64,000 nucleotides of DNA. Origin: Fibrobacter succinogenes (GTDB lineage: Bacteria > Fibrobacterota > Fibrobacteria > Fibrobacterales > Fibrobacteraceae). The stretch covers positions 62,001 to 126,000 of the forward strand of contig CACWPM010000018.1 of assembly GCA_902762795.1 (NCBI GenBank). The letters are read 5' to 3'. Each line of letters starts with the position of its first letter. Within the stretch, counting starts at the first letter, position 1. The notes under the pieces were generated by a model. That model saw only the letters and a program-made list of their open reading frames with translations, was not told the origin of the DNA and ran no database searches. The position numbers and the translations under genes are program-made. Shown here piece after piece: positions 12,108 through 61,752 of the stretch.

Positions 12108-12196
12108 GCAATAGGTTGTATGTACTAGTAGAAATTAGGCATCAGTGCATGATTATTACAAATCAACCCCTGTAACCTAAAACCTAGCACCTACTA
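12100..12196. repeat. Degenerate paired-arm TTAGG repeat
   Basis: Left arm words (ATAGGCAATAGG) begin at the end of the TsaC/Sua5 gene; the right arm (12167-12196) reads on the reverse strand as TAGTAGGTGCTAGG followed by TTTTAGGTTACAGG. The first TAG of this arm is the stop codon of the reverse-strand dipeptidase gene. The core is too diverged to show clear hairpins. Confidence 0.55.
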
Positions 12197-12976
12197 CATC
12201 GGAAACAGCGGGTAGTGTTCCTTGGTATAGGCACGCGTGAAAGCATTGAAGTGCCACCATTCGCTAGGAAGCATCACCCAGCCGGCGCGCTTCATGATTT
12301 TGCGGAGCAAGTTGCGATTGTCGATTTGCAGCCGCGTGAGACGCCCGGACTTTAATGCATCGGCTTCACCCACAATTCCGGCACACCGTTCAAAGGAATC
12401 GAAATCTGTACCCATATCAAGCAGGACTCCAAGACTATCAGCAAGTCCAAGATCCAGAGCCAGGCCGTAATTATGAAGCCCTCCTGTTTTGCCGGACGAT
12501 ACAAAATGACTGTAAGGTGTCCCGGCGACAGCGCTTTTCAAAACAGCCTGCGCATACATCGGGCGCGCTGCATCAAAAATGACAAGCGAATATCCGGGCA
12601 ATTCCTTCTCGATAATCGAGAGCGCACGCTTTAGCTTAACCAGCGCATCTTTGTGGATAAACGCTCGCTGAATGCCACAGTACATGTCATGACCGGTTAC
12701 GTTATTAAACGTTGCATAGCGCAAGTCCATGCGGATACCTTCCATATCCGTGATTTCCACAAGCTTGGGATTGTTTGCTGCGTATTCAATCCACTTTTCC
12801 GCAGACGAGCAATAACGCAAAGGCTTTTCCGGCTTCGGCGGCACGAACAAAGAATCGGTCACATGCGCATACGAGAGAACTGAAAGAAAAGCAATTATCA
12901 AAAGAATAGATTGCTTCCGCCACGCTCTGCTCGCGGCAGGCTCTACTTTCGTTCCTCGCAATGGCAACTGGCGCAA
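12194..12976 (-). CDS. D-alanyl-D-alanine dipeptidase (VanX/DdpX family, M15D)
   Basis: About 260 residues. Motifs of the zinc dipeptidase are present: DLRYATFNNVTG near the start of the domain, FDAARP, GGLHNYGLALDLGL and EWWHF, covering the zinc ligands and catalytic acid. It cleaves D-Ala-D-Ala, and here is probably exported (hydrophobic SILLIIAFLSVLSYA near residues 23-37), which suits cell-wall turnover rather than vancomycin resistance. The start is uncertain: no ATG lies near the N-terminus, TTG 12976 is the longest choice, and its upstream sequence is made entirely of a dispersed repeat. The stop codon lies in another repeat arm. Confidence 0.88.
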   Translation of the reverse strand: MRQLPLRGTKVEPAASRAWRKQSILLIIAFLSVLSYAHVTDSLFVPPKPEKPLRYCSSAEKWIEYAANNPKLVEITDMEGIRMDLRYATFNNVTGHDMYCGIQRAFIHKDALVKLKRALSIIEKELPGYSLVIFDAARPMYAQAVLKSAVAGTPYSHFVSSGKTGGLHNYGLALDLGLADSLGVLLDMGTDFDSFERCAGIVGEADALKSGRLTRLQIDNRNLLRKIMKRAGWVMLPSEWWHFNAFTRAYTKEHYPLFPM

Positions 12977-13010
12977 CTTCCTACTGTCTGCTTACTACCG
13001 TCTACTAACT
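12976..13010. repeat. GTCTACTG-type repeat filling an intergenic gap
   Basis: The whole gap between the TonB-dependent receptor stop and the dipeptidase start is this repeat. On the reverse strand the receptor's TAG stop (13009-13011) is directly followed by TTAGTAGACGGTAG and related words. The same arrangement occurs at 60787-60818. Confidence 0.7.
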
Positions 13011-15357
13011 ATATTCCCAATTGAACTTCTACACCGAAGTCAATGTTGAGTCCCATACCTTTTGCAATGAACGGCACCAAGTCATAGCCATTAGCTGTAT
13101 TCTTGTCCTTATCCTTCGCCACCCAGGAACGTTCACGCCAGTTTTGTGAACCAAGGAATCTGAGCGCTTCTACATCAAGTTTTGCAAAGATGTTATCGAC
13201 TTCGAGATAGAACCTTGCATGTTTGAAGAAGAACCTGGACTTAGTCAAATCCAGATTGACGCGCAAATCCGTTCTGTACAGGTTCGTAAACTTGTTGTAA
13301 TCCTTGAGTTCGCGAGTACCACTCTTGCCATCAAACGCAGGCGTAATCGTGTAATAGTAAATCGGCCTGTGCCATGCAGCATGATGCGTCAAGATAATCG
13401 ACACAATCGAATCCTTGCGCGGATAAAATCTAAAGTGCGAAACAATATCCAAGCGGGAATTTGCTTCCCACGGCAATGAGGATCCGTCCTTGAGTTCATA
13501 TTCACCGTACACGGAACTTGCGTTCATAGCCATCGAGAAGTGGTGCGAAGTTTTCCATTCCAGTGAACCCGAGGCACCGGAAACCCAGGCATAATCGACT
13601 GGCGTTACATCGTTGTAATTAGCAAACACCTTAGGCAGGGGAAGCAGCGGATCAAAGTAGAAGCGTCCAAAGCCAGCCACCTGAGCGACCAAGTATTTTG
13701 AACGGTACCCGACTCCTGCCTTGAAGGACGTCCCCGATTCCAAACGACCCGTCAAGTCGCCGTCGTCAAAGTAATGTTTCCAGTCTGCACGATAAGCCGC
13801 ATTCGTAAAGAGTCTCCAATAAGCGGAATCCTTCTTGGACAAATTACGATCCATGTCGAAAGAAACGGTCGGAAGGGCTTTATGGTCAGCTGCATCGGCA
13901 ACTGCCCCCACGGAAAGCATGTGTTCCGAGAAATCATTTTTCCAGTCAAGCGTTGCAGCACCCGACAGAATGCTCGTCTGGTAATCGCGGCTTTCTTTTC
14001 CGCCTGGAACAGGGAAACTGCGTTCAACAATGTGATGTTCGTAGAGAATTGCGCCACGCAAGTCCGCCCCAAAAATGTCGGCATTGAAATTTTTGTCGGC
14101 ACCGGCACTGAGCGTAATATGCGTCTGGCGGTAACCGTCAATGAACGTTTTTGCAGAAGGTTCAAGATTGCCCGAACGGAATCCAGTCGTATCGCGAATA
14201 GTATCGCTCAAACACTCGCGGACAAACCCAGCATGGAAACTCGTCCCGAACTTCGATGCATATTCACCGCCAACGACCAAATAACTTTGGCTGCCTTCGG
14301 CAATATCAATCGAATTGACGCTGCTATAGAGCTTCGACGTATCCTGACGAATTCTGTATTCATCAGAGCTGAACAACGTACGCAAAGCCCAAGTTGCATT
14401 ACCAAGCGAATCGGAACCATTCAACTGCGCATATATATCGAAAGCCGATAAATCAAAAGGATCCGACGACTTCACCTTATCTTCACCAGATGATTTGTCA
14501 TCGCGCTTACGGAGTTCCGTAAAGAACTTTTCGCCCAAGATCTTGAGAATTCCATCGTCAAGCGTACGGAAAGCAAAGCGGAAACTATCCCAAATGAAGA
14601 ACGGAGCATCGAGCAAAACTTCACGTTGAGCTACAGTGGCGGAACCTCTCAAGCCCCATTCACCGTGAGTCTGTTCAGGAACGAACTGGATCGATGTCGC
14701 AAGCCCCTGCCCAAGCGGCCCCTGCCCGTAATGGTCGTGAACTTCGATACCGCTCAACGTATGCGGGTTAATGACAGACAAGTTTCCCGGAAAACCCAAA
14801 TCCAAATGGCGCATGTTCGGAACACGGAGACGACCCAAATGATAAGCGACATCCCCTGCACGCGATCCGTCATAATATAGCGCGCTGCTAAAATCTTTCT
14901 GTCCCGAAATACCGGGCATCTGGCTCAAATGATCCGTCAGGTCAAAACGCATACCCGCAGCATCTTCAAGTTTTTCGAGCCGAACCGTGCGCTCGACTTC
15001 CCACTTGATCGGTTCCCCGTCGCCGATAATCGTACTTGCACCGAGATTAGTGACGTTCGTGCTGAGCGTAACCACCATGTCCATCAAGTCGGCAAAATCC
15101 TGCAATTCCACAAAGACGCTATCAAAGCCATCCTTCTTGAACACGAGCGTTGCATTCCTGGAATTCACCGAAAGTTCAAAACGACCGCGGGCATCCGTCT
15201 CCCCGATCCGCTTGCCGGACTTATAAGATATCAAAACATCCTTGACGGGCAGGTCAGAATCCGCTTCGAGGACAACTCCAATAATCGTCGTCGGGGACGC
15301 TGCAAGCCCCCCAACAACAAGAAATAAAACGAAAAAAAATATAAGGCGAAACTTCAT
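13009..15357 (-). CDS. TonB-dependent receptor-like outer-membrane protein
   Basis: 782 residues. A signal peptide (residues 1-20) is followed by a carboxypeptidase-regulatory-like Ig domain (TTIIGVVLEADSDLPVKDV), then a plug-like domain with DHLSQMPGISGQKDF, and a long C-terminal region of alternating beta-strands expected of a barrel, ending in VEVQLGI. Such receptors import oligosaccharides, siderophores or cobalamin with TonB energy. No SusD-like partner or substrate gene is adjacent. It is divergent from the nitrilase-family gene with a 68-base gap. Confidence 0.85.
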   Translation of the reverse strand: MKFRLIFFFVLFLVVGGLAASPTTIIGVVLEADSDLPVKDVLISYKSGKRIGETDARGRFELSVNSRNATLVFKKDGFDSVFVELQDFADLMDMVVTLSTNVTNLGASTIIGDGEPIKWEVERTVRLEKLEDAAGMRFDLTDHLSQMPGISGQKDFSSALYYDGSRAGDVAYHLGRLRVPNMRHLDLGFPGNLSVINPHTLSGIEVHDHYGQGPLGQGLATSIQFVPEQTHGEWGLRGSATVAQREVLLDAPFFIWDSFRFAFRTLDDGILKILGEKFFTELRKRDDKSSGEDKVKSSDPFDLSAFDIYAQLNGSDSLGNATWALRTLFSSDEYRIRQDTSKLYSSVNSIDIAEGSQSYLVVGGEYASKFGTSFHAGFVRECLSDTIRDTTGFRSGNLEPSAKTFIDGYRQTHITLSAGADKNFNADIFGADLRGAILYEHHIVERSFPVPGGKESRDYQTSILSGAATLDWKNDFSEHMLSVGAVADAADHKALPTVSFDMDRNLSKKDSAYWRLFTNAAYRADWKHYFDDGDLTGRLESGTSFKAGVGYRSKYLVAQVAGFGRFYFDPLLPLPKVFANYNDVTPVDYAWVSGASGSLEWKTSHHFSMAMNASSVYGEYELKDGSSLPWEANSRLDIVSHFRFYPRKDSIVSIILTHHAAWHRPIYYYTITPAFDGKSGTRELKDYNKFTNLYRTDLRVNLDLTKSRFFFKHARFYLEVDNIFAKLDVEALRFLGSQNWRERSWVAKDKDKNTANGYDLVPFIAKGMGLNIDFGVEVQLGI

Positions 15358-25197: not shown

Positions 25198-25198
25198 G

Positions 25199-25245
25199 AC
25201 GGTAGACTGTAGGAAGTTGGAAGTAGGCAGTAGGATGTAGTTATG
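25199..25245. repeat. GTCTACTG-type dispersed repeat
   Basis: GGTAGACTGTAGGAAG, then GGAAGTAGGCAGTAGG, lies between the MoxR stop and the DUF58 start. It shares words with 12976-13010, 31501-31527, 47890-47925, 53221-53243 and 60787-60818. Confidence 0.65.
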
Positions 25246-30787: not shown

Positions 30788-31498
30788 CTAATCCTTTAGC
30801 AATTCCGGATGTTTTTCTGAAATCCGTCGCGCAAGATAGACGAACGGGGTATCCATCAGCGATGTCACGATAAAGATGCCGTAACCGAACACGAGAATTT
30901 CGACGATGGTATTCCACGGGAAGACGCCCGCGAACGCAAGCAAGTTGAACACGACCACGTTAATCAACTGGCTTACAAGCGTGGAGCCGTTATTGCGGAG
31001 CCACAAATAACCTTTCTTGTCGCCGAACTTCTTTTCGGACCATTTCCACCAGGCATGGTAGGCCCACACGTCGAACATTTCACAGACGGCGTATGCAAAC
31101 AAACTCGCAAGCATCACGCGCGGCGTGTTCGAGAACACGGTACGGATGGGTTCAGCCATCGTATCGCCTGCCGCCGGGATGTACAGGAACCAGCTCTGCG
31201 AAATCAGAATGAACGTGACGTTCGCAAGAATGCCAATCTTGACGCAGCGGCTCGCTTCTTTTTTGCCGAAGATTTCACTCATGATGTCGGTCGCGAGGAA
31301 TGTCGAAGCGAAGATGACGTTGCCGAGCGTGGTATCGAGCCCGAAGGCGTGTACCAGAATAAGCACTTCGATGTTTGCGGCAATCGTGCAAATGACGGTC
31401 CAGGCAAAAATGCCCTGCTTGCCGAAGAAGCGGAAGAAGGCGACGAGGCCCCCGAAGAAGGCGAAGATAGAGGCGATGAGGATAAGTTCGTTTTGCAT
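30788..31498 (-). CDS. Queuosine precursor transporter (YhhQ/VUT family)
   Basis: 236 residues with six to seven membrane segments. TDIMSEIFGKKEA, a VWAYHAWWKWSEKKFG region and WLRNNGSTLVSQLINVVVF are the marks of the YhhQ family, which imports queuosine precursors such as preQ0 or preQ1. It lies downstream of queF on the same strand with about 117 bases between, and that gap is filled by dispersed repeats. Together they point to salvage of a 7-deazaguanine precursor plus its reduction. Confidence 0.92.
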   Translation of the reverse strand: MQNELILIASIFAFFGGLVAFFRFFGKQGIFAWTVICTIAANIEVLILVHAFGLDTTLGNVIFASTFLATDIMSEIFGKKEASRCVKIGILANVTFILISQSWFLYIPAAGDTMAEPIRTVFSNTPRVMLASLFAYAVCEMFDVWAYHAWWKWSEKKFGDKKGYLWLRNNGSTLVSQLINVVVFNLLAFAGVFPWNTIVEILVFGYGIFIVTSLMDTPFVYLARRISEKHPELLKD

Positions 31499-31500
31499 AA

Positions 31501-31632
31501 GTAGTAGGAAGTTAGAAGTAGGAAGTGGTTAGGGTTTAGGGGTTGGGAAAGTAAGGCGGCATCGCCGCATTTTTTAATGATCTTGGTACTTAAGATATAA
31601 CCTATTTCCTGTTACCTAACACCTATTACCTC
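31501..31632. repeat. Paired-arm TTAGG repeat, copy between queF and yhhQ
   Basis: A GTAGTAGGAAG-type segment (31501-31527) is followed by a left arm (GGTTAGGGTTTAGGGGTTGGG), a core with hairpins GCGGC ATC GCCGC (31556-31568) and ATCTT/AAGAT (31580-31596), and a right arm CCTATTTCCTGTTACC then TAACACCTATTACC (31601-31630). The right arm runs into queF and encodes its last residues and stop. Confidence 0.65.
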
Positions 31633-46800: not shown

Positions 46801-48091
46801 AGTTTTCGAGTTCTAGTCCGAGGCTGCGGAGTTGCAGCACCACATTCGCCAAATTGCTACGGCGGATTTCCGGTTCCGTGAATTCATCGCGCTTTTCAAA
46901 ATTCTCGGGAGAGTAAAGGCGAATGCACACGCCGGGCTTCACGCGCCCCGCGCGTCCAGTGCGCTGCCGCGCACTGGCCTTCGAAATTTCTTCGACGGGA
47001 AGCCCCTGGATTCTCGCCTGCGCATTGTATCGCGAGATTCGAGCCATACCCGTATCGACAACGTAAGCAATTCCCGGAATCGTCAAGGAAGTTTCAGCAA
47101 TGTTCGTCGCCAAGACCACGCGAGTCTTGCCGGTATGCTTGAAAATGCGGCGCTGTTCGTCAGGACTCATGCGTCCATACAACGGAAGCACATCAAACGT
47201 CGCTGCATCCAGCTCGTGAGCAAGCTCGCCCATCAAGTCCTGAATGTCGCGTTCCGTCGGTAAAAAACAGAGCAAGTGGTCGCGATGCCGCGTTTCCAAA
47301 TCGAGAATCGCATCACGAGCCTCTTCAATCAACCCCGAATCGCCCTTGCCCGAGATATCACGACCGAAACCTCTCTCGTCTCTCGTCTGTAGGGCTCCGC
47401 CCGTTCTCGTATCTGAGAAATAATACTCGACATCCACAGGGTACGTGCGGCCTTCGGCCTCCATCACGCAACTGTTGTCGTAAAACTCTTCGAATAGTTT
47501 TGCATCTAAAGTTGCAGACGCGACAATCAACTTGAAGTCTGGACGCTTTGCAAGAACCGTCTTGAAAATGCCGAGCAAGATATCGATGTTCAACGAGCGT
47601 TCATGCGCTTCGTCAATCATGATGGCGTTGTACTGCCGGAACAAGCGGTCCTTGCGGAACTCCTGCAACAAGATACCATCCGTCATCACCTTGATGGGAG
47701 CTTCATTCGTGCCTTGTTCCCAAAAACGAATTTTCGTCGAGACTAGCTCTTCGTCCTTGAGTTCTTCGCGCAAGCGGTCGGCAATGGAGATTGCCGCCAA
47801 ACGCCGAGGTTCCGTCACGCCGATTTTAAAGGAACAGGTATTAGGTTTTAGGTTACAGGTTTTAGGAGTCTCCGAATGACACTCCCCATCACTTCCTACT
47901 TCCGACTTCCTACTGTCTACTTTTTCTAAAAACCATTCCAGCAAAAACTTCGGTAATTGCGTAGATTTGCCGGAACCCGTATCGGCCTTGACAATAATGA
48001 CTTGATGTTTTTCTAAAAGCTCAAAAAACTCCTCCCGATGTTCAACAACGGGAAGCTCAGGATATTCAATCTTCAAATCAGACAAAAACAT
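43892..48091 (-). CDS. hrpA: ATP-dependent RNA helicase HrpA with repeat-derived insertions
   Basis: 1399 residues, DEAH-box type. Walker A GSGKST (39-44), DEAH (160-163), then ATNIAETSLTIPGI and QRTGRAGRVKPG. The C-terminal OB-like and DUF3418 regions follow. Residues about 57-89 (VDSRKSEVGSD to NTCSFK) between motifs I and Ia, about 224-245 (TRTGGALQTRDERGF) and about 823-864 (ERTGVALQTKDERGF, then VIPGSVPESPSRW) are encoded by dispersed repeats (see repeat features). A further tandem-repeat insertion lies at about 1277-1300. Length exceeds the roughly 1300 of E. coli HrpA. The helicase rescues stalled ribosomes on mRNA. Confidence 0.92.
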   Translation of the reverse strand: MFLSDLKIEYPELPVVEHREEFFELLEKHQVIIVKADTGSGKSTQLPKFLLEWFLEKVDSRKSEVGSDGECHSETPKTCNLKPNTCSFKIGVTEPRRLAAISIADRLREELKDEELVSTKIRFWEQGTNEAPIKVMTDGILLQEFRKDRLFRQYNAIMIDEAHERSLNIDILLGIFKTVLAKRPDFKLIVASATLDAKLFEEFYDNSCVMEAEGRTYPVDVEYYFSDTRTGGALQTRDERGFGRDISGKGDSGLIEEARDAILDLETRHRDHLLCFLPTERDIQDLMGELAHELDAATFDVLPLYGRMSPDEQRRIFKHTGKTRVVLATNIAETSLTIPGIAYVVDTGMARISRYNAQARIQGLPVEEISKASARQRTGRAGRVKPGVCIRLYSPENFEKRDEFTEPEIRRSNLANVVLQLRSLGLELENFPFLQSPPHSAFRGAYKTLFELGALTADNSSGHVTKLGRDMTRLPMDVSLSAVLLRARDMGVLQPALIVCSALSIQDPRVVPNDEPERTRIRQLHRKFCGHKSDFLVYVSMWNAFCTDWDGKTWNKLRKFCDKNSMHFLRLREWVDLYEQFSRILEVKIENKVCPFDSFHRDNLHIALLSGFLGGIAHRDIENGCYRLVNGRETHVFPGSDLYAKSVEWLFSAEVRETSRTFLTKAAEIKPEWILQVAEPFCTRRWFEPTWNKERGFVEAVEEVSFRGLVISRGHRIDYARVNPEDCAQIFWRDAVVMGEVARPFDFMTHNDRVVENLHALEARKRQFGIAPSEDALVEYYTRIAGKVNSIKTLKDYIREHTDQFLKFDEKYWLDLLDERTGVALQTKDERGFNRIVIPGSVPESPSRWNKKNLTPKTYDLKPVNGGSIEHFRIGERVVTGEMVFDATRDCDGITLHLPYDLLTEISPAKFAMSIQQWREWMIESVIREMPKSVKKSLEAKRTAIDDEFFAALENFPHKAPLQLLYEVFSNTKEIRSGANGASIDVPTVNPDKENHLRLHLVVSKPGFPEPFNVSRSRQAEAGGVGESERLTAVSDTGARTVAIEVSPEWGSYRMFLAVRPAIVTFGIDFPLENMRFGWRLGESALMMSDESRFWQAFRKRVEGGRLESASHLETASRSAQQKTPLSEEKKQLIADRLNLLETGGVFADNFETVLKIWVAKSLIADLLDANRCVRFTGLEFSRGKKIRDFKSLAANTRSEDEEIRLSLVRATYESGLVSADAFVKCWNILKDFSVNMRNSAEKTLAQNKIIIAIHTAYQKELTLFERLCAVSELLGINLVCGELGASRDSSASCESSASRNFSTSNENTELSANTLREYFRPYLKARYLKDHELKNARELLGKIDRMPTDDPKFADLYLQAKALLEDFEILKYKRKGVDAEEVVEEDALARLKGRFGRL
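44192..44245. repeat. 18-bp tandem repeat inside hrpA
   Basis: Units GCGAGATGCACTAGATTC, GCAAGATGCACTAGAATC and GCGAGATGCGCCGAGCTC occur in order. The period is again six codons, and it shares the GCGAGATGC word with the DUF58 gene repeat. Confidence 0.85.
45498..45628. repeat. Composite dispersed-repeat insertion in hrpA (third)
   Basis: Contains TTAGG-arm words (ACAGGTTTTAGG, then ATAGGTTTTAGGTGTTAGG), a REP-like palindrome ATTCCGGGACGGAGCCCGGAATGACA... and a GTCTTTCGTCTG word, all kept in frame. It encodes the stretch after LDERTGV. Confidence 0.8.
47355..47418. repeat. GTCTCGTCTGTAGGGC insertion in hrpA (second)
   Basis: CCTCTCGTCTCTCGTCTG, then TAGGGCTCCGCCCG, encodes GALQTRDERGF; the same words in the third insertion encode VALQTKDERGF. 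It belongs to the family at 28853-28885 and 49308-49342. Confidence 0.8.
47836..47928. repeat. Composite dispersed-repeat insertion in hrpA (first)
   Basis: The TTAGG words (ACAGGTATTAGGTTTTAGG, then GTTACAGGTTTTAGG) are followed by AGTCTCCGAATGACAC (REP-like) and CTTCCTACTTCCGACTTCC, then TACTGTCTAC. It is inserted in frame between helicase motifs I and Ia. Confidence 0.85.
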
Positions 48092-48093
48092 TC

Positions 48094-48222
48094 TATAGGT
48101 TTCAGGTTACAGGTTTTAGGTATTAGGTTAATTTCATGCACTTCGTGCATCTATAAAACGGGCGACGGAGTCGCGATAATAAATCCTATTACCTAACTCC
48201 TAAAACCTAATTCCTACTCTTT
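48094..48222. repeat. Paired-arm TTAGG repeat with two hairpins (copy at hrpA start)
   Basis: Left arm TAGGTTTCAGGTTACAGG then TTTTAGGTATTAGG (48096-48129). Core: ATGCAC TTC GTGCAT (48136-48150), CTATAAAACGG, GCGAC GGA GTCGC (48162-48174). Right arm CCTATTACCTAACTCC then TAAAACCTAATTCCTA (48185-48216). The right arm provides the TAG stop of the reverse-strand zinc-ribbon gene. Confidence 0.8.
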
Positions 48223-53026: not shown

Positions 53027-53444
53027 TTGCACTCCTTTTTGTATAAATAAAATAAAAAAATATATCAAATAAATTTTTGTAATAGAAAAAAATATAGACA
53101 GTAAAACGATATAGGAGATTCCGGCATAAAGCTGGAATGACATCGCAAGGATAAAACTTTACTAGATCTTTCGCCCTGCTCAGGATGACAAGTCCAAGAA
53201 TACAAAGCGTCCGCGTCTCTTTCTACCGCCTACTGTCTACTTATACTCTCGCTTCGCTCAAGTATCAAATGCTAGCCTCGGTCATGCCGACACTCGACTT
53301 ACGCATTTGTCATACTGTCAACGGCATTCCGCTTGCTTATTCCTAATCACTAACCACCCACCTAAAGGTGGCCATGCCCACATAAGTACTGAAGTACTAA
53401 GTGGTCAAAGGTAACCACCAACCACTATTTACTACATTTGGCGC
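53027..53444. repeat. Gene-free repeat-rich region before dnaG
   Basis: REP-like GGAGATTCCGGCATAAAG, then CTGGAATGACA (53112-53141), a CTTTCGCCCTGCTCAGG, then ATGACA repeat (about 53167-53190), a CTACCGCCTACTGTCTAC repeat (53224-53243), and CACTTAGTACTTCAGTACTTA-like words on the reverse strand near 53380-53402, as direct inverted repeat TAAGTACTGAAGTACTAAG. No gene is seen. The dnaG promoter should be at the right end. Confidence 0.6.
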
Positions 53445-60477: not shown

Positions 60478-60817
60478 TAAAGGTCTCCCTATATAAAATC
60501 GAGACCCAAATTTAGGAATTTACTTCAATTTCGTTAAGGGGGGTAAGATTTTTTTATAAAATATTGTTTACGCGAATTAGGTTTTAGGTTACAGGTTATA
60601 GGTATTAGGATAAATATCACGAGCTTCGCTCGTCTTTAAAAGGTGGCGTAGCCAGATTATAAAAACCTAGCCCCTAATACCTAACACCTACAGTACTGTC
60701 TGGATCCTCTTCGAGGATGACGCATTAACCTCTAAAGTAATCCCGCCGTGGCAAACCACGCATCTACTTTGAGCAACAAGTTTTTCTGTCTACCGTCTAC
60801 TGCCTACTGTCTACTAA
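60478..60817. repeat. Gene-free repeat region with a paired-arm element
   Basis: Holds a paired-arm TTAGG repeat (next entry), a GGATCCTCTTCGAGGATGACG word (about 60702-60722), and CTACCGTCTACTGCCTACTG, then TCTACTAATTA (60790-60818), which directly follows the stop of the zinc-ribbon gene on the reverse strand. No gene is seen. Confidence 0.7.
60577..60691. repeat. Paired-arm TTAGG repeat with two hairpins (copy by the SulP gene)
   Basis: Left arm TTAGGTTTTAGGTTACAGG, then TTATAGGTATTAGGA. Core: ACGAGC TTC GCTCGT (60619-60633), CTTTAAAAGG, TGGC GTA GCCA (60644-60654). Right arm AACCTAGCCCCTAATACC, then TAACACCTAC. The hairpins pair where the copy at 48094-48222 pairs, with different bases. 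Confidence 0.8.
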
Positions 60818-61159
60818 TTACAACAGTCCTTTCTTTGCAGATCTCATCAAGTTCTTGACCTGCTTTTTATCCATCGGCGGGACGCGCGTGTCTTCGAAGC
60901 GTTTGGAGCGCGGAGCGCAATCTTCGCAGAGATGCTTTACTACCGTCCCAAAACTAGCGGCTCCATCGGACATGGACATTTCCTTGGATCGGTACGAACG
61001 TAATAGAGCTTCCTTGTGGCACTTGTCGCAAATTCCCATCTTAGGAGCGGCAGGCTCACGGACAGAATTACGTTTCTGCTTGTCCTTTTCGGAATCAATG
61101 GAGAAAGCACGGCTCATGGCCGCATTTTTACTAGCAAAACGATTGTCAAAAAGACCCAT
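60818..61159 (-). CDS. Zinc-ribbon protein, unknown
   Basis: 113 residues from ATG 61159 (MGLFDNRF), with AAGGAG upstream. Two CxxC pairs (ICDKC and LCEDC) about 40 residues apart make a zinc ribbon; a basic C-terminal helix (KKQVKNLMRSAKKGLL) follows. It is the last of three genes that read 62322-60818 and overlaps or abuts the next one closely (3 bases). The stop TAA is directly followed by a GTCTACTG-type repeat. Confidence 0.75.
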   Translation of the reverse strand: MGLFDNRFASKNAAMSRAFSIDSEKDKQKRNSVREPAAPKMGICDKCHKEALLRSYRSKEMSMSDGAASFGTVVKHLCEDCAPRSKRFEDTRVPPMDKKQVKNLMRSAKKGLL

Positions 61160-61161
61160 AA

Positions 61162-61752
61162 TTACATCTCCTTTAAATCTTCTACAAGTTTTTCTTGCAA
61201 ATACAGCGCCAAAAGCATGCAACAAAGCGATGTCGCTTCACCATTTTCCATGAACAAGCTGCGTCCAAACTTGCCACGCGCCATCTGTTTTTCCTTGAAC
61301 TCCTCCGCAAATTTCGCAAAATCGAGCAAAACAATGCGATTTTCATTCATTTTAATAATTTCTCGGATAGACGTATTCAAAAACTCGACTTCGTTGACAG
61401 CAATCGGGAACATCTCGCTTGGGATTGTGAGCAAAAACAGGCGCGATTGCGTCTTATTCACAAGTTCATTCACCAAGAGTAGCAAATGATTGGCTACAGA
61501 AGCCCCGTCGGCACCGCCCTGGTTCAGTTCACGCAGCCCAAGCCCCATGATAATGCGCCCGGCATTTTTGCCAATGACATCTGAAGAAAGGCGCGCCTTG
61601 ATTTGCGACAAAGATACCGCCACAGGCACATTCAAGGAAAACTGTATAGGGCGGCTGGGTTCCCGGCAAAGCACAGCTTCCACAAAACGGTTCGCCGCTT
61701 CGCCCTTGGGCCCGAACATTTCATCGCCTATAACTAAAACTCTGTTTTCCAC
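61162..61752 (-). CDS. SGNH-hydrolase-like protein lacking the nucleophile
   Basis: 196 residues. The order VLVIGDEMFG near the N-terminus, GKNAGRIIMGLGLREL in the middle and FLLTIPSEMFP recalls blocks I-III of SGNH hydrolases, but the GDS serine is replaced by Glu (GDE), so it is probably not a normal esterase. No catalytic DxxH motif is clear at the end. It may be a binding protein. It lies between the TusA-like and zinc-ribbon genes, all within 10 bases of each other. Confidence 0.55.
   Translation of the reverse strand: MENRVLVIGDEMFGPKGEAANRFVEAVLCREPSRPIQFSLNVPVAVSLSQIKARLSSDVIGKNAGRIIMGLGLRELNQGGADGASVANHLLLLVNELVNKTQSRLFLLTIPSEMFPIAVNEVEFLNTSIREIIKMNENRIVLLDFAKFAEEFKEKQMARGKFGRSLFMENGEATSLCCMLLALYLQEKLVEDLKEM

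Follow-up and report, generated by a model that had tools for sequence, protein, structure and literature searches.

Degenerate heptamer arrays adjoin gene edges with a fixed strand polarity in Fibrobacter

Heptamer arrays at gene ends

Several hundred degenerate heptamer arrays lie between genes in rumen-type Fibrobacter, and their orientation is nearly uniform: at either gene edge, the array points outward in the 5' to 3' sense of its AG-rich strand. The analysis concerned a 64-kb window (the whole stretch of DNA presented here) of a 3.93-Mb draft genome, G000, in which a repeat had been predicted to begin exactly at the stop codons of two unrelated genes. Both junctions were found as described. 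The TonB-receptor-like ORF (13009..15357, minus strand) ends with CTA at 13009-13011, the stop TAG, after which the coding strand continues with TTAGTAGACGGTAGTAAGCAGACAGTAGGAAG, also given as TTAGTAGACGGTAGTAAGCAGACAGTAGG. The degenerate heptamer array directly after this stop occupies 12976..13008 (AG strand on minus), and the TAG is in 7-bp phase with the TAGs of the array. The small zinc-ribbon-like ORF with CxxC motifs (60818..61225, minus strand) ends with TTA at 60818-60820, the stop TAA, after which TTAGTAGACAGTAGGCAGTAGACGGTAGACAG comes next in the coding sense, and its stop is abutted by a GTCTACT-type array (60786..60817, AG strand on minus). Pfam gave only a weak, carboxypeptidase-regulatory-like match for the receptor ORF; its closest named relatives come from Fibrobacter genomes, several of them F. 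succinogenes, with 81-90% identity over the whole protein.

The entire gap between the receptor and the neighboring dipeptidase had also been assigned to the repeat. This is correct only if the Peptidase_M15 (D-Ala-D-Ala dipeptidase) ORF (12194..12976, minus strand) starts at the TTG at 12976. The first ~20 N-terminal residues of this ORF are read-through of a CATTGCGAGGAACG-type repeat, so the true start is probably 75-115 bp deeper within it, downstream of 12976, and the array is probably just the receptor-side portion of the gap. A GTCATCC/GTCATTGCGAG-type palindromic repeat at 12895-12965 seems to have intruded into the same ORF at its 5' end; palindromic repeats of this type also start within ~5-20 bp of stops at L232-L261 of G061, a species without arrays there.

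The GTCTACTG element, a 7-bp tandem array of degenerate units, represents one heptamer family among many in G000. In the window the word itself had 3 copies where 0.66 were expected, a weak enrichment only, as 4 of 100 shuffles also gave 3, and the two-unit word CTACYGYCTACY was strongly enriched in the genome, with 143 copies compared to 2 for the reversed control. Within the genus (61 genomes), CTACYGYCTACY counts varied between 0 and 268. A 7-bp tandem period above chance was detected in the noncoding DNA of G000: 48 self-similar segments occurred at lag 7 and none at this lag in shuffles, lags that are not multiples of 7 gave at most 2 segments each, and only lags 7, 14 and 21 were enriched. 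At least 10 unit families occupy the gene gaps (AGTAGRM, AGACGAR, TTAGGTT, TTAGTGG, TTAGARC and others), with AAGTAGG, ACAGTAG, AGGTTTT, AGTGGTT, AACTTAG and ACGAGAG as dominant units. GGG runs are absent from these dominant units, which therefore lack the G-quadruplex feature of the Xanthomonas/Nostoc subtype. Further GTCTACT-type arrays of the window lie between ORFs (25198..25240, AG strand on plus), in a divergent gap (53219..53242, minus strand) and upstream of the ORF 30788..31498 on the minus strand, where the array (31503..31526, AG strand on plus) ends 4 bp before the start codon. Elsewhere, an uninterrupted 377-bp array of TTCTAAG/TTCCAAG heptamers was observed upstream of a start codon (L066:14839-15216). 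G027, a genome from another taxonomic family of the class, carries 124 CTACYGYCTACY matches (GGTAGAC/GGTAGTA units). Rfam at gathering thresholds gave zero matches within the window, and a known RNA element was therefore rejected as explanation.

Polarity and distance to gene edges

Distances between arrays and gene edges were determined with our own gene caller for arrays of any 7-bp unit, the orientation being defined by dinucleotide count as that of the AG-rich strand. The sample comprised 692 kb of G000, partly picked around arrays of a single family, GTCTACT, and 200 kb each from G063, G045, G004, G005, G046 and G010, picked irrespective of arrays. Only the array nearest to each edge was counted, and stretches were pooled. 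Within 15 bp of a stop codon were 58 of the 81 arrays that faced it with the 5' end of the AG strand (median distance 0) and 6 of the 71 that faced it with the 3' end (median 78; Fisher p ~3e-16), in pooled counts from seven species, one genome each, that are related and therefore partly non-independent. The starts of the repeat were thus distributed non-randomly around stop codons in the tested stretches, far above chance and with a strong polarity, which bears out the predicted stop-adjacent placement. Among gaps with a single array, 42 of 87 arrays lay within 15 bp on the AG 5' side, while uniform placement within the gap predicted 16 and reached at most 27 in 5000 trials. The stretches of G046 and G010, picked irrespective of arrays, displayed the same polarity pattern, and an HMM of the GTCTACT family alone gave ~27 stop-abutting arrays in AG sense compared to 3 in the opposite one (counted by eye). 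In gaps with two arrays the order was AG...CT 27 times and CT...AG not once.

Start codons followed the stop-side rule in a weaker form, with 49 of 98 arrays (AG 5' end) within 25 bp compared to 5 of 44. Read in gene sense, many of these arms come within 0-6 bp of the start codon without a Shine-Dalgarno sequence in between, and others stop ~20 bp short of it, adjoining a -10-like box. At L292-L311/L039-L078, many genes lack a Shine-Dalgarno sequence and have their start codon 0-6 bp behind a CT-rich arm; in others a TAnnTTT-like -10 box precedes the ATG by ~10-20 bp. This layout suggests SD-independent or short-leader initiation in Fibrobacter.

From stop-adjacency at the two genes, the original prediction had suggested a site-specific mechanism or a functional 3' element. 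Non-random and strongly polar placement was confirmed, but the rule is not specific to stops: start codons and -10 boxes are faced by this array end as well, numerous unrelated heptamers show the same behavior, and the stop adjacency is in part due to arrays that themselves supply TAG stops. Both a site-specific mechanism and a functional 3' element are possible readings.

Stop codons and turnover between species

In G000, TAG was the stop codon of 23 out of 30 array-adjacent genes, compared to 110 out of 423 (26%) elsewhere. TAG recurs at +7, +14, +21 and +28 from the stop of array-adjacent genes, and the stop codon is therefore usually in phase with the first unit, or is itself that unit. 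When 27 array-adjacent genes were compared with their orthologs in G067 and G061, protein length was mostly unchanged and homology stopped at the stop codon, where the other species had heptamers of another family, a palindrome, or no element. Informative genes with the stop within the array numbered 21, and in 12 of them the length was exactly that in G061 (p 6e-6 against an expectation of 1/7, p 0.02 against 1/3). As the array-free G061 orthologs mostly end in TAA and TAG is enriched at arrays, the TAG came with the array. The sense strand of the AGACGAR family contains no stop codons, yet this family sits directly behind stops; stop donation thus explains some of the pattern, and as sole account it is rejected, also because start codons show polarity.

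The same gene ends differed between species. Behind the receptor stop, other species had the same family, GAGCTRT, GAAGRAT or GAATGCR heptamers, AGACGAR arrays (in eight species), or nothing. At the zinc-ribbon gene the site was empty in four sister species (G004, G061, G019 and G069), with a conserved permease leader directly after the stop. G000 has ~250 bp inserted exactly between stop and leader (60567..60817), bounded by TTAGGTT-type and GTCTACT-type arrays, and three other species carry a different insert with CTCATAC heptamers at the same point. Between G004 on the one hand and G014 and G063 on the other, three gaps measured 17, 9 and 8 bp where empty and 116, 208 and 225 bp where filled by arrays. 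In a convergent gene pair, G061 and G067 have a terminator hairpin in common; arms of different families sit independently between each stop and this terminator, and the family on the side of the first gene differs between the two species. GTCTACT-type matches numbered 195 in G004 and 11 in its sister species G014; a nearly 20-fold difference at ~92% DNA identity indicates that the expansion or loss was recent.

Such turnover of arrays and families between sister species argues against a conserved function. It is unlikely, in our estimate, that the array is kept as a functional 3' element, serving as a fail-safe stop in three frames or tuning translation or mRNA stability in a REP-like manner. 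The sharp anchoring at the stop, the TAGs that recur in step with it and the arms between stop and terminator in the convergent pair would agree with such a role, as would the effect on translation described for E. coli REPs located within 15 nt of stops (PMC12306157). However, AGACGAR arrays abut stops without offering any on the sense strand, the same polarity appears at start codons, sister species have no arrays or unrelated units at the same genes, and the genus contains genomes with anything from 0 to 268 matches.

Paired arrays and mobility

Paired arrays were also present in the window. An AGGTTTT array (AG on plus) and an ACTTCCT array (AG on minus) form an AG...CT pair at 47836..47922. 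A matched foldback at 48097..48216 consists of a TAGGTTT array, two small hairpins and a TAAATCC array, the right arm giving the TAG stop to a small ORF. Within the insert behind the zinc-ribbon gene, a TTAGGTT-family array (60577..60609, AG strand on plus) has an ACCTAAC array (60665..60690, minus strand) as its inverted partner. The foldbacks 48097-48216 and 60577-60690 share the same layout, with TTAGGTT arms around two small hairpins, and a core similar to theirs was seen at L067:10656-10777. Among the AG...CT pairs, ~10 of 25 were matched foldbacks of one family around small GC hairpins; over all pairs, arm pairing was slightly, non-significantly above that of permuted partners (544/5000). 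In G027, most matches belong to AG...CT pairs whose arms are 50-180 bp from each other and flank unrelated cores.

These pairs could belong to a mobile, MITE-like foldback that has heptamer arrays as terminal inverted repeats and inserts into the only free gap between genes. The invariable AG...CT order, with AG...CT pairs also in G027 of another taxonomic family, the same-family arms around hairpins and the 100-250 bp inserts that begin and end at arrays in some sister comparisons are consistent with this. We nevertheless find it an improbable reading, as partner arms are often of different families, most gaps contain a single array, and the arms enclose unrelated or ancestral cores, including the shared terminator. 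Inspection by eye of a few empty/filled junctions revealed no target-site duplication, and the number of Y1 transposases does not follow the number of arrays. One inserted element with paired arms as the sole account is rejected because the arms are often unmatched and independent.

Y1 transposases (IS200/RAYT) numbered 0-3 per genome (two matches in G000) and were not found in G006, G010, G019, G046 and G067, which have 95-268 pattern matches; RAYT/IS200-type (Y1_Tnp) mobilisation is therefore rejected. The search for Y1 across the genomes thus provided no mobile enzyme for the arrays. Some AG...CT pairs fold back, but the units are not self-complementary and form no palindromic 20-40 bp stem-loop of the REP/BIME type, which bears a GTAG or CGTC tag.

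Origin of the arrays

We propose, with a probability of about 0.45, that arrays are copied in a polar manner onto gene edges, slip by 7 bp and are kept where the gene unit remains intact. Arrays of at least 10 unit families would be copied into gene gaps by template switching, or by insertion via 2-4 bp of TAG/AG microhomology at the edge, and would then be altered by 7-bp slippage. The joints would have a fixed polarity, with the AG-rich strand 5' to 3' outward from the gene at either edge. Purifying selection would retain those joints that spare the -10 box or start codon, the reading frame and the stop. They would therefore pile up at the stop, where a unit with TAG can take the place of the original stop without harm and all three frames are closed within 21 bp, and would accumulate on the start side as well. 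Copying, slippage and the selective filter are what we infer from the period, the polarity, the stop registration, the family turnover and the insertion relative to sister species, all of which were observed. Uniform insertion followed by selection predicts no such sharp peak at 0 bp; some targeting, or a selected benefit, may therefore be involved. Ancestral stops are not notably TAG, which bears against the microhomology step, and no donor-recipient copying event was caught in the compared genomes.

Alternatively, slippage arrays might form or land at any place without polarity, and with gaps so small, selection and stop donation would suffice for the pattern. The median tandem gap of array-poor species is ~22 bp, several of the filled gaps measure 8-17 bp where empty, and a TAG-bearing array automatically stops a frame. 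Non-polar formation leaves the polarity at start codons unexplained, however, which already strains it, as well as the polarity of stop-free AGACGAR units at stops and the 27 to 0 ratio in paired gaps, and we regard it as quite improbable. There is a similarly slight chance that in unrelated phyla a dedicated polar process, directed to gene edges, lays heptamers on the AG strand from each gene boundary outward, with an end-extending or template-switching activity as candidate. If so, stops and start regions would be marked at the DNA level, independent of the direction of transcription.

Comparison with known repeats and significance

Heptamers of Xanthomonas (GGGAATC) and Nostoc (GGGGAYT, i.e., GGGGA(C/T)T) resemble the arrays in their 7-bp unit, intergenic position and strand polarity at ORF edges: their G-rich strand is the coding one in the 50 bp after a stop, which the repeat may overlap, and the non-coding one close before starts (PMC4692102). 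While these genomes each have one G4-forming family, a Fibrobacter genome has many AG-rich non-G4 families, and Fibrobacter further differs in that arrays are in exact register with stops and one family replaces another between sister species. Heptamers dominate the long simple repeats of bacteria, for which slippage was proposed (Mrazek 2007, via PMC4679880). Heptanucleotide STRR of heterocystous cyanobacteria likewise comprise several intergenic 7-bp families per genome; the available part of PMC4679880 describes neither gene-edge polarity nor stop registration for cyanobacterial STRR or long simple repeats. TAACTGA direct repeats of marine Beggiatoaceae are also intergenic heptamers, often a few bases before starts; unlike the arrays, they consist of one near-exact unit, mainly at starts, and related heptamers are rare (PMC4679880). 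GTAG-REPs, whose GTAG end often gives a TAG stop to the flanking ORF (PMC3733652), are stop-proximal and intergenic like the arrays, and AGTAGRM units contain GTAG (PMC3733652; PMC12306157). REPs are 20-40 bp palindromes with RAYT transposases, however, whereas the arrays are non-palindromic and occur in several genomes without Y1. The text of the F. succinogenes S85 genome paper does not mention intergenic repeats.

For annotators, the arrays mean that in this genus repeats are the source of many stops and of some C-terminal residues. Array-rich and array-poor sister species of Fibrobacter allow gains and losses to be dated and the mechanism to be tested. That one strand rule applies to unrelated heptamers in Fibrobacter (this study) and in Xanthomonas and Nostoc (literature) suggests a general mode by which bacterial intergenic DNA is built up and renewed.
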